A DNA stretch of 44,511 nucleotides from IMG/VR virus record IMGVR_UViG_3300023176_006733, positions 1-44,511 of that record. One strand, given 5' to 3'. The DNA comes from a virus. The position numbers and the translations under genes are program-made. The notes below the pieces were generated by a model. The model did not search any database, had not been told where the DNA came from, and worked only from the letters and a program-made list of their open reading frames with translations. Below, piece after piece: positions 1-42,133 of the stretch (position 1 is its first letter; each line of letters starts with the position of its first letter).

Positions 1-1173
1 ATTATTAGAAAATATTGATTTATTGTAAACTTCATTCACATAAAAATCTACATTTCCCCCACCAATTTTACCTCCGGCTGCTGCCTTACCTTTAATTTCA
101 CCTTGCCAACTTTTATCTCCTCCAAAGGTTCTAAATTGCACCTCTCCGCCATCACTGTGTAAATACATGTCTTTTGATGAAAAAAAATCTCCAGTCTTTC
201 CCCAAACCCATTTTGTGAATTTATATTGTGATTTTGTTTCATTTGGAACATTAAATTGTTTAATGGTTGCTATAGCACCTTTTCCTAGTCTTTTCAAAGA
301 AATACCTAATAATCTCATTTTATTGATATTTCTCAGTAATGCAGCTTCTTCGGCAACTTTTGTATTCAAATCTCCCCATGATGTGGTGGAATCTTTTAGA
401 GGATCGGAAGTAGATGATAATGTTGTTGCCCAAATGTCACCTGGGTTCCATTTATCATCAGAGAAAGATCCGGGCGCTTGAGCTCTAATACCTCTTTCCA
501 TCGCATTCTGCTTATCCAATTTATGTACTTTTTTCTTTGCATTGTATATTTTTTGCATAAATTTTGAACCTCTATGAAAATAAACTTTTTTTCCCGATTC
601 AAATTTATCTTTATATTCATCATATATTCCATTTGCAATTTTTATGAAAACCATATCATTAACCCAATCAACTGGAACTTTTTTCAAACAATTATCTAAA
701 CTCATAGATGTTTCACAATATTTTGCAGAATTGGTAAGTCCTTTTAACTGTTCTGCTTGTTTATCTAGTTTCTTAGGATCTGTTATAATATGTCCATTTA
801 ATATATTAAATACTAATGAAGTGTAAAAACATTGCATACATTCAACAACTTCCGTATCATCAGATCCTGCACCTGATCCACCGCCACCTCCAAAATCAGG
901 ATCTTTAAATATGTTTTTAATTTCTATTTCTTGAATATTTTTTTTATTATTTTTATTTTGTCCAGGTAATATGTATTTTAACGTACCTCCCCAGCCATTA
1001 TTATTTCTTGAAAAATATTCAATGCCTATAATTTTTGTTCCATTTTTATTTTCACCTACTATAAATTCTCTATTATCTACAATTTTGTTAAAGATTATTT
1101 CTTTTCTTGTCTTGCCGGCATATGGACCTTTACTTGCAGTTTTATTAAAATCGCCTGATTTTAAGTAAGCCAT
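1..1173 (-). CDS. Uncharacterised protein downstream of small terminase, truncated by the left edge
   Basis: The reading frame is open from an ATG at 1171-1173 to base 1 (391 codons, no stop), so the C-terminus is missing. It begins 3 nt after the gp16 stop and so belongs to the packaging operon. I do not recognise a named family. Visible features are a glycine linker near residues 94-103, cysteine pairs (C112/C115 and C153/C162), the segment KWNPGDIW at 241-248, LLGISLKR at 288-295, and a Gly/Lys-rich stretch around 357-373 (WQGEIKGK...GGKIGGG). GDIW followed about 45 residues later by GISLK recalls the acidic and SxK/ExK elements of PD-(D/E)XK nuclease-like proteins, but that is inference. 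In T4 the gene after 16 is large terminase 17. No canonical Walker A or B motif appears in these 391 residues, so it is not an obvious TerL. Confidence 0.85.
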   Translation of the reverse strand, partial: MAYLKSGDFNKTASKGPYAGKTRKEIIFNKIVDNREFIVGENKNGTKIIGIEYFSRNNNGWGGTLKYILPGQNKNNKKNIQEIEIKNIFKDPDFGGGGGSGAGSDDTEVVECMQCFYTSLVFNILNGHIITDPKKLDKQAEQLKGLTNSAKYCETSMSLDNCLKKVPVDWVNDMVFIKIANGIYDEYKDKFESGKKVYFHRGSKFMQKIYNAKKKVHKLDKQNAMERGIRAQAPGSFSDDKWNPGDIWATTLSSTSDPLKDSTTSWGDLNTKVAEEAALLRNINKMRLLGISLKRLGKGAIATIKQFNVPNETKSQYKFTKWVWGKTGDFFSSKDMYLHSDGGEVQFRTFGGDKSWQGEIKGKAAAGGKIGGGNVDFYVNEVYNKSIFSNN

Positions 1174-1583: not shown

Positions 1584-1922
1584 TTAGTCCTCATACCAAT
1601 TTATGCCTTTTGATTTACAGAAATTACCTGCGGTTTTCATTTCTATTCCTAACTTACCATTTCTTAATTTATTCAAAAATTCATCATCTCTTAATTTTTT
1701 TCTCATCTGATCTAAAGAACAACCACAATACAATATTGCTTTATTTCCATTCCATTTTGTATCAGTTTCTTTAAATTTATTTTCATGAACTTTTTTAAGA
1801 CTTTTTTCACAACTTGACATACCATAATGTACAATAGAGGATTTCCAAGGTCTATCGCTTTTTTTATAATCACCCATACATCCATAAAGAAAAAATAATA
1901 TTATTATCACATTTAATTTCAT
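1584..1922 (-). CDS. Small predicted lipoprotein with CxC motif
   Basis: A 112-residue protein with a short lysine start, a hydrophobic stretch (residues 4-13) and a lipobox-like FLYGC ending at C15, so it is predicted to be exported and lipid-anchored in the host envelope. The mature part has four more cysteines, C38, C66, C68 and C102. C66-G-C68 is followed by SLDQMRKKL, a CxC-then-amphipathic-helix pattern like that of small bacterial periplasmic proteins. Its ATG overlaps the gp15 stop (ATGA), with GGTGAG 8 nt upstream, so it is translationally coupled to gp15. A lipoprotein is out of place among neck and terminase genes. Superinfection exclusion or an envelope-related lysis role are possibilities I infer only from localisation. 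I do not recognise a named family. Confidence 0.75.
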   Translation of the reverse strand: MKLNVIIILFFLYGCMGDYKKSDRPWKSSIVHYGMSSCEKSLKKVHENKFKETDTKWNGNKAILYCGCSLDQMRKKLRDDEFLNKLRNGKLGIEMKTAGNFCKSKGINWYED

Positions 1923-2842
1923 GTTTCATACTCACCTGTTAAATTGTTATAATAAGCACTAGGATTAAATATTGTAATGCTTTTTAAATTTTCAGTTTTA
2001 TCAGCAGTTTCAGATATAGGTGTGATTGAAATTTTACTTATAATATTTTTTGACCCAATATTTGAATCACTATTTTCAAATAATAAATGAGTTTCATCTT
2101 CTAACAATAATCTGTTGATAGAAAAATTATTTGAATTTTCTAAATTTAAAAAAACTAATTCCGAATTATTTAAATTTACTTGATCAATTGGAGTTCTAAA
2201 ACTGATATCAATTGATTTAATAATTTTATCTGAAGTTCTAATATTTGGATATATGAACCCTTTTAAAGTAAAATCTAATGTCCATACTATTGCCCTTCTC
2301 TGCAAAAAATCTCCTAGATAATCATCTTCTACAGATGAAGAATTTAAAACAATAGGAACATCTAATTTCAATCCCATATCAGTTAAAATATTGACTGATA
2401 CTGTAAATTCTGGTGTAAAATAAGGTAAAATTTGTTCTAATATTTGAGTACCATCTTCTGCATTATCGACAAATACAAACAAACTAAAATCAAAAGTATA
2501 AGGATTTGGATTGTACATCGTTTTCAAAGTTCTAGAATTTGATACATAACTTTTATTTACCATTTTGCCGATGGAATTTAATTTCCTCTCCGGATCATAA
2601 TTAATTGCGGTCATCTCAAATCCAATTCTAGGTAATTTTATAGAAATTTGTTTGTCTAAATTTGGATCTGCTTCTAATCTAGCTAAAAATTTCTGTTTCG
2701 GTCCATAAGCGACCGGAACCTTTATTTTAGATACCACATTATTATTTGAATCTTTTTTTTCTATACTAATGTCGTTAAATAAAGTTCCAAATAATGCAAC
2801 ATATTTTCGAATTGTTTGATGGTAGAAAGTTTGTCCTAGCAT
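1919..2842 (-). CDS. 15: Tail sheath stabiliser and completion protein, gp15-like
   Basis: A 307-residue homolog of T4 gp15 (272 aa), which forms the hexameric ring at the head-proximal end of the tail and joins tail to neck. Family landmarks are the N-terminal MLGQTFYHQTIRKYVALFGT, KVPVAYGPKQKFLARL, LPRIGFEM, YNPNPYTFDFSLFVF followed by ILEQILPYF, and a late RRAIVWTLDFTLKGFIYPN block. These run in the same order as T4 gp15 (YNPSPIKMIYELSIF, VEQILPYFQPHF, RRRIEWSLTFEVNGWMYP). Residues past about 225 form a divergent Asn/Ser-rich tail. Start support: GGAG 4 nt upstream of ATG. It has its own upstream region (2843-2893) because the gene before it lies on the other strand. The next gene overlaps by 4 nt. 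Confidence 0.92.
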   Translation of the reverse strand: MLGQTFYHQTIRKYVALFGTLFNDISIEKKDSNNNVVSKIKVPVAYGPKQKFLARLEADPNLDKQISIKLPRIGFEMTAINYDPERKLNSIGKMVNKSYVSNSRTLKTMYNPNPYTFDFSLFVFVDNAEDGTQILEQILPYFTPEFTVSVNILTDMGLKLDVPIVLNSSSVEDDYLGDFLQRRAIVWTLDFTLKGFIYPNIRTSDKIIKSIDISFRTPIDQVNLNNSELVFLNLENSNNFSINRLLLEDETHLLFENSDSNIGSKNIISKISITPISETADKTENLKSITIFNPSAYYNNLTGEYET

Positions 2843-2893: not shown

Positions 2894-3247
2894 ATGACAA
2901 CATCAATAAAAACACAAGGACAAAATTTAGTAATGTATCAAGGAGCTACATTTGAGCAAACATTTGTCGCAAAAGATAAAAATAGTTTAAACGTATCTTT
3001 ATCTGCAGGAACTTGCATATCTCAAATGAGAAAAAATTACAGCACATCTAATTCTTCTCATATTTTAACATTTTCCACAACAATTAATGACAGTGCTGTG
3101 ACTATTTCAGCATCTGCTAGTGATACTACAAATATGGAACCTGGTTTATATTTTTATGATGTTGAATTTAGGCAATCCGATAATGTAACTGTTGAAAAAA
3201 TTGTAAATGGTATGGTAAATGTTATTGGGGAATCAACAAAAATTTAA
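2894..3247 (+). CDS. Small beta-rich virion-type protein on the opposite strand
   Basis: A 117-residue protein predicted to be almost all beta strand. The pattern is an opening LVMYQGATFEQTF, then ISQMRKNYSTS, a TISASASDTTN segment, EPGLYFYDVEFRQ, and a closing GMVNVIG. I have seen this pattern in many marine phage small structural proteins and in BppU-like N-terminal domains of tail and baseplate adhesins. The role is probably an accessory virion or baseplate component (inference). It is the only plus-strand gene between positions 1 and 41698. It has an exact TATAAATA box 5 nt before its ATG and no Shine-Dalgarno. Its TAA overlaps the gp14 stop by 4 nt in convergent orientation, so there is no room for a terminator between them. 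Confidence 0.85.
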   Translation: MTTSIKTQGQNLVMYQGATFEQTFVAKDKNSLNVSLSAGTCISQMRKNYSTSNSSHILTFSTTINDSAVTISASASDTTNMEPGLYFYDVEFRQSDNVTVEKIVNGMVNVIGESTKI

Positions 3248-41698: not shown

Positions 41699-42133
41699 AT
41701 GGCTTACAAAGGAAAATATAATATAAAAAATATAAAAAAATATAAAGGTGATCCCACTAATGTTACATATCGTTCATTGTGGGAAAGAAAATTTATGAAA
41801 TATTGCGATGAAAATTTGAATATTATTGAATGGTCCAGTGAAGAAATAATAATACCTTACCGATCTCCAATCGATAGAAAAATACACAGATATTATCCGG
41901 ATTTTTGGGTAAAACTAAGAAGAAATGATAAAAAAATAGAATGCTTTTTAATTGAAATAAAACCAAAAAAACAAACAATTCCGCCCAAAAAACCTTCTAA
42001 CATGACACAAAAATATATTAAAGAAGCATATACATATGGAATAAATGAAGCAAAATGGAATGCAGCAAAAGAATATTGTAAGGACAGAAATTGGAAATTT
42101 GAAATTATTACAGAAGATCATTTATTTAACTAA
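41699..42133 (+). CDS. 4: Head completion nuclease, gp4-like
   Basis: A 144-residue homolog of T4 gp4 (150 aa), a head-completion protein with a predicted PD-(D/E)XK nuclease fold needed before tail joining. The family opening is clear (MAYKGKYNIKNIKKYKGDPT, then NVTYRSLWERKFMKYCD). The nuclease core is visible as E29, D68 (YYPDFW) and E86-I-K88 (FLIEIKPK), followed by KKQTIPPKK. The C-terminal NEAKWNAAKEYCKDRNWKFE also matches T4. Catalytic residues appear intact. No Shine-Dalgarno precedes the ATG. The upstream 41685-41692 AATATATA is only a weak late-box candidate (6 of 8, 6-nt spacing). It is the first gene of the rightward cluster. Confidence 0.94.
   Translation: MAYKGKYNIKNIKKYKGDPTNVTYRSLWERKFMKYCDENLNIIEWSSEEIIIPYRSPIDRKIHRYYPDFWVKLRRNDKKIECFLIEIKPKKQTIPPKKPSNMTQKYIKEAYTYGINEAKWNAAKEYCKDRNWKFEIITEDHLFN

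Follow-up and report, generated by a model that had tools for sequence, protein, structure and literature searches.

The gene that runs off the left end of the window, meaning the whole virus record of 44,511 bases that was analysed, belongs to a large and so far unstudied family of marine virus proteins. Judged from sequence, the product is probably a metal-dependent DNA endonuclease of the replication and nucleotide operon, of the PD-(D/E)XK-like, Ser-x-Lys kind, and is a candidate for the cutting of host DNA. In the proposed site, E111 in helix A, D246 at the start of strand 2 and K294 at the end of strand 3 would together form the catalytic centre, with S292 standing in for the usual acidic residue, and the site would lie on an antiparallel sheet of three strands, surrounded by a variable N-terminal barrel and a helical C-terminal domain. 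Family membership, residue conservation, gene order and the coevolving strands are observed; catalysis, metal, substrate and biological role are inferred. In the window, the gene and its immediate neighbours are placed as follows.

1..1173, minus strand: first 391 of the 500 codons of the nuclease-like gene (family PHROG 1462), cut off by the contig edge
1177..1581, minus strand: small terminase gp16 of T4 type (phrog_445, E 1.3e-37), directly upstream of the nuclease-like gene
1584..1922, minus strand: 112-aa protein between gp15 and gp16, with a lipoprotein-like N-terminal signal and no family
1919..2842, minus strand: tail sheath stabiliser gp15, by family match

The minus-strand frame from 1173 starts 3 bases past the gp16 stop and is still open at base 1 after 391 codons, which confirms an earlier note on this DNA that had read at least this many codons of another protein after gp16. 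The same note had proposed leftward extension to the full protein and to gp17, and contig L001, whose copy is 100% identical over the 391 codons of the window, supplies both: a full-length protein of 500 aa and, in overlap with its stop codon, the start of gp17, a large terminase of 547 aa. The order on this contig is gp15, the 112-aa protein, gp16, the nuclease-like gene, gp17, an HNH gene on the other strand and an 817-aa protein, which we take to be the tail sheath gp18 from its position and start; contig L003 has the same order and a protein that is 70.5% identical. The HNH_3 endonuclease gene (L001:8143-8673 and L003:8134-8559) lies downstream of gp17 on the opposite strand, overlaps the gp17 end and is, near the moved nuclease-like gene, a possible homing element. 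Contigs L008, L009 and L010 have right ends exactly at codon 110, near the Gly-rich linker before the core, and these shared ends are probably assembly breaks. As for the other neighbours, the 112-aa protein has a lipobox-like LYGC motif, which is unusual in a head and tail cluster, and had no match in Pfam and none of significance in PHROG. Next to gp15, the opposite strand carries a gene for 117 aa (2894-3247) with a weak, below cut-off match to an LtfC-like beta-sandwich, and a T4 gp4-like head-closure protein (41699-42133) has two matches, one to the head-closure family phrog_218 and one to a TnsA-like endonuclease N domain (PF08722, E 8.4e-24).

The window protein matches PHROG 1462 at E 2.1e-30 and the full protein at E 3.2e-43, where residues 74-500 align to positions 69-488 of the 488 in the profile, and the profile is matched by 36 of 36 family members. 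PHROG 1462 is a family of unknown function that annotations describe solely as hypothetical, and GenBank notes on its members carry the cyanophage annotation T4-like GC 533 or GC 419. Searches of Pfam, NCBIfam and PADLOC gave no significant match for the family, the NCBIfam hits being scattered (each in one or two of the 36 members) and the single PADLOC hit being at chance level, as were the hits of sequence searches against the PDB. In viral contigs, three queries yielded 184, at least 446 and at least 555 confirmed relatives, of which the locus lists hold the best 80 in each case. With the window protein as tblastn query, 45 of 50,697 phage records gave a match, mostly of Synechococcus and Prochlorococcus phages, and diverged members as queries found more, with 45, 54, 118 and 132 records per query at differing E limits (these counts are not a union). 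Bacterial genome records held only five family loci, all in metagenome-assembled genomes (MAGs). In P-SSM4, S-RIM2, S-RIM12, P-RSM4 and ACG-2014g the match of the homologue spans two annotated coding sequences, and in these phages the gene may be split or frameshifted.

The two domains of the protein and the codons of the putative site map to the window at these positions.

886..1110, minus strand: variable N-terminal domain, residues 22-96, a small beta-barrel in the predicted structure
10..885, minus strand: conserved core domain, residues 97-388 (pLDDT 90.7, pTM 0.87)
841..843, minus strand: codon of E111 in helix A, invariant in 125/125
436..438, minus strand: codon of D246 in the KWxPxD motif, invariant in 125/125, partly favoured by the search patterns
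292..300, minus strand: codons of S292-L293-K294, invariant in 125/125

Conservation was read from complete ORFs of more than 300 aa, in a pool of 145 ORFs without internal stops (from loci L001-L157), 9 proteins from phage records and 75 of 80 relatives from the third scan. The pool was thinned to 94 sequences at 85% identity and to 125 at 80%, and these sets include a subfamily that is only about 20% identical. Six of the 500 columns are invariant in the 125 non-redundant relatives: E111, W242, D246, S292, L293 and K294. Two of the three scans used W-x-P-x-D patterns and so favour W242, P244 and D246, whereas E111 and S-L-K were in no search pattern; the 36 sequences collected without D246 in the pattern all keep it as well. 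T107 and P244 are each kept in 93 of the 94 sequences, and residue 369 is always basic (80 Lys and 45 Arg of 125). Together, E111, D246, S292 and K294 are the residues to be expected in a restriction-endonuclease-like active site whose motif III has Ser in place of its acidic residue.

These results bear on the motifs that the earlier note had picked out. Its GDIW and GISLK are present as G245-D246-I247-W248 and G290-I-S-L-K294, and the D246 and K294 that it singled out are both among the six invariant columns. The Lys/Gly-rich motif (W356-G373) fared less evenly: one subfamily conserves it, in the other it is degenerate, and only the basic residue 369 is kept throughout. The suggested zinc-binding cysteine pairs find no counterpart in the family: no Cys or His column is conserved in 80 or more of the 94 relatives, position 112 is Ser in 71, position 115 is Cys in 68 and position 162 is Cys in 30, while at 153 and 460 Cys is not the commonest residue, and a zinc site was rejected on these grounds. 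An ADP-ribosyltransferase (F-x-R-G, Q-x-E) was likewise considered and dropped because Arg at position 201 is kept in 118 of 125 sequences but not in all, and position 357 has Lys in 43 of the 125.

The core model, predicted from 82 sequences, consists of helix A followed by strands 102-105, 151-154 and 192-195 with helices between them, which correspond to 198-201, 247-250 and 288-291 in full-length numbering. E111 falls inside helix 101-124, D246 directly precedes strand 247-250, and S292-K294 stand at the end of the next strand; an unusual helix separates strands 2 and 3. Fold searches of the PDB gave no match at E ≤ 0.001 for the core or the whole protein, the best Foldseek E being 1.0 and 0.43, respectively. 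The best VIA Z was 3.7 for the core (44 aligned, rmsd 3.1) and 4.5 for the whole protein (60 aligned, rmsd 3.8), the latter through the N-terminal barrel only, whose weak matches are chromo-barrel-like. A viral fold library gave 10 matches at E ≤ 0.001, including proteins of P-HM1, S-RIM44, S-RIM14, S-RIM8, P-TIM68 and P-SSM3, which are called 'uncharacterized' wherever they are named.

Coevolution was computed from 229 sequences (Neff 107), with pairs ranked among 24,939 from variable columns. Strands 2 and 3 are linked by pairs 249-291 (rank 34) and 251-285 (rank 61) and strands 1 and 2 by pairs 196-251 (rank 33) and 199-249 (rank 89), and the key pairs recur in 24, 15, 19 and 13 of 30 bootstraps. 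Set against 2000 random windows, the antiparallel band scores above all of them for strands 1-2 and above 99.7% of them for strands 2-3, with parallel bands nearly as high as the antiparallel ones (1.07 vs 1.19 and 1.11 vs 1.38). Of the two controls, the hairpin 336-340/343-350 scores higher than the tested strand pairs and 343-350/355-361 about equal to them. The antiparallel register (sum about 540) sets D246 opposite K294, a pair whose direct coupling is invisible because both columns are invariant. A sheet of order 1-2-3 with D246 and K294 side by side thus has moderate support from coevolution. For the PD-(D/E)XK-like elements claimed in the earlier note, conservation, secondary structure and strand coevolution all speak in favour, and the failure to match a solved nuclease fold speaks against.

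The neighbourhood of the gene in its relatives differs from that in the window. Counted over 123 distinct relatives, the gene has gp41 on its upstream side in 79, a DUF6267 start no more than 1.5 kb downstream in 78 and gp17 as its direct downstream neighbour in five, and 17, several of them on short contigs, have none of the three; for the 71 distinct members of the second subfamily the counts are 51 for gp41, 57 for DUF6267 and 0 for gp17. Annotated cyanophages have the order gp41, mazG, small genes, the family gene, the GC 71 protein and a cytidylyltransferase (GC 190), where GC 71 is the DUF6267 family according to a note in the S-PM2 record. In the annotated isolates with PHROG 1462, GC 533 or GC 419 members the gene thus comes after gp41 and mazG, in contrast to the window copy between gp16 and gp17. 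Its usual home is the replication and nucleotide operon (gp41 - family gene - DUF6267 - nucleotidyltransferase) of marine T4-like phages. The DUF6267 protein (PF19782; L145:8993-10219 and relatives) carries K-x-D-G, G-D, E-G-x-V and K-L in this order in 20 of 20 sequences, which look like motifs I, III, IV and V in the covalent nucleotidyltransferases. By these motifs it resembles a polynucleotide ligase or a capping-type nucleotidyltransferase; it is matched in 465 phage records and had no PDB sequence match. At one locus (L018:2172-3287) a 371-aa protein has a DruA-like domain (PF14236, E 9.9e-10; PHROG 19197), and this type of protein occurs at 42 loci in all, mostly one gene upstream of the family gene.

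The earlier note had suggested a packaging-operon nuclease that might trim ends or attack host or rival DNA. Some placements are in keeping with a terminase partner that trims or protects DNA ends: the five contigs L001-L005 have the gene between gp16 and gp17 with 3-base and overlapping junctions, and in L150 it stands, independently, just before another large terminase and portal. The relatives as a whole point elsewhere, being mostly linked to gp41 and DUF6267, with gp17 adjacent in 5/123 against DUF6267 in 78/123 and in 0/71 of the second subfamily. In addition, the L006 protein, at 89.9% identity to that of L003, groups with L003-L005 within the gp16-X-gp17 clade (support 100/99), yet its gene lies in the order gp41, family gene, DUF6267 and nucleotidyltransferase; in L090 the gene stands between those for the major capsid protein and the tail tube. 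The placements in L006, L090 and L150 indicate that the gene changes place. The gp4-like head-closure protein, which is itself TnsA-nuclease-like, is encoded separately. Gene 17 directly follows gene 16 in T4, and to that extent the order that the earlier note called normal holds. In marine cyanophages, by contrast, the gp16-gp17 gap is an insertion hotspot, one of four described in Synechococcus phages (PMC3037559, in excerpt), and the g15-g18 region is likewise a hotspot (PMC2984593, in excerpt). As the copy of the window lineage lies in this hotspot, its position says little about packaging, and the hotspot and the mobile placement together remove most of the support for such a role, which is now very improbable. 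The contigs of the window lineage, which are fragments, showed no second gene copy, no DUF6267 and no gp41.

A place in the virus particle, as a structural or injected virion protein rather than an intracellular nuclease, is unlikely; in its favour, the relative in S-SCSM1 is labelled a virion protein in GenBank. The study of that phage reports 45 proteins by mass spectrometry of CsCl-purified particles, and its authors allow for carry-over of highly expressed proteins in the case of three non-structural ones (PMC9602691). Virions of S-SM1 contained the T4-GC190 cytidylyltransferase, which belongs to the same operon (PMC3037559, in excerpt), whereas in S-CREM1, for which 14 virion proteins were found, the relative is annotated just as 'hypothetical protein'. 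The invariant E, D and S-x-K fit an enzyme, though they are compatible with packaging in the virion, and delivery of a nuclease with the particle is possible on the strength of the one S-SCSM1 record and a proteome with carry-over. It is also doubtful that the protein is some other enzyme, for example a nucleotidyltransferase or phosphotransferase whose Lys and acidic residues are merely nuclease-like. Such an enzyme would accord with the lack of a nuclease fold match, with the nucleotidyltransferase among the neighbours and with the Gly/Lys-rich stretch W356-G373, which could bind a nucleotide; this stretch is, however, lost in the second subfamily, the order of P-x-D-hydrophobic followed by hydrophobic-S-x-K is nuclease-like, and the KxDG motif of adenylyltransferases belongs to the neighbouring DUF6267 protein and is absent here.

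If the family is a nuclease, an enzyme made together with the replication genes would most simply cut intracellular DNA during infection, and its substrate would most likely be DNA inside the infected cell, the host chromosome first. According to a review, denA, ndd and denB are absent from cyanomyoviruses, which degrade host DNA either less efficiently or by an undescribed method, and no homologues of the T4 g30 ligase are found in them (PMC2984593, in excerpt). The myoviruses Syn9 and P-HM2 reportedly break host DNA down in a matter of hours (PMC7852597, in excerpt), and its degradation by S-TIM4 was followed by qPCR (PMC7853090, in excerpt); Syn9 (gp182), P-HM2 and S-TIM4 each encode a family relative. 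Degradation of host DNA also occurs with the podoviruses P-SSP7 and Syn5 (excerpts of PMC7852597 and PMC7853090), and there is no podovirus among the family matches listed in the phage-record searches, so the link between the family and host DNA degradation is a correlation only. The family is a candidate for the missing host-DNA-degrading nuclease of cyanomyoviruses. A more speculative and rather unlikely extension would be a cut-and-seal pair, partly carried in the virion, in which this undescribed host-DNA nuclease of marine T4-like cyanophages and, from the same operon, the likewise undescribed ligase-like DUF6267 protein replace the denA/denB and gene 30 of T4. A literature search found no paper under DUF6267 or 'PHROG 1462', and no title or displayed abstract on cyanophage nucleases and host DNA degradation names the family. 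Should the protein be a nuclease, the source of recycled nucleotides in common ocean infections would become directly testable through a named gene and named residues; should it not be a host-DNA nuclease, hundreds of 'hypothetical' phage proteins would still gain a likely active site.

Among known nucleases, many PD-(D/E)XK families have an acidic residue in the helix that precedes the core, and the phage family has one in E111 (125/125) as well as the Asp that starts core strand 2 (D246, 125/125); the literal (D/E)xK of strand 3 is absent from all 125 sequences, which have S292-L-K294 instead. HaeIII enzymes have the PD-(D/E)XK fold, and in a control set of six RE_HaeIII (PF09556) sequences, from six of seven fetched loci with L176 left out, the order is the same, with E16, D104, S119 and K121 all invariant, so that S-x-K occurs in a restriction-enzyme family; most of them have IGxSxK and one reads YNISLKHN. 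The likeness lies in the order of an N-terminal E, D and S-x-K, and the differences in the spacing from D to K, which is 17 residues there and 48 in the phage family, and in the methyltransferase partner, none of which was seen beside the phage family. The PF09556 profile was matched by 0 of 36 family members at E 0.1. HaeIII was the best of seven hhalign templates, with GISLK aligned to IGVSAK at a level that is not significant (P 0.064, probability 0.9%), against P 0.11-0.52 for five unrelated decoy profiles and 0.41 for a reversed profile.

In the restriction endonucleases Cfr10I, Bse634I and NgoMIV, Ser replaces the acidic residue of motif III, and the pattern D ... S-x-K with about 50 residues between is shared with the phage family; none of 349 genomes and none of 14 controls matched PF07832, the Bse634I family, and these enzymes differ from the phage protein in giving no fold match to it. 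T4 DenA and DenB belong to other nuclease families, and the phage family is a candidate for the same host-DNA role. The nuclease reading of the family is likely from its conserved residues, and since no fold was matched the protein is better said to work like a PD-(D/E)XK nuclease than to be a member of that class.
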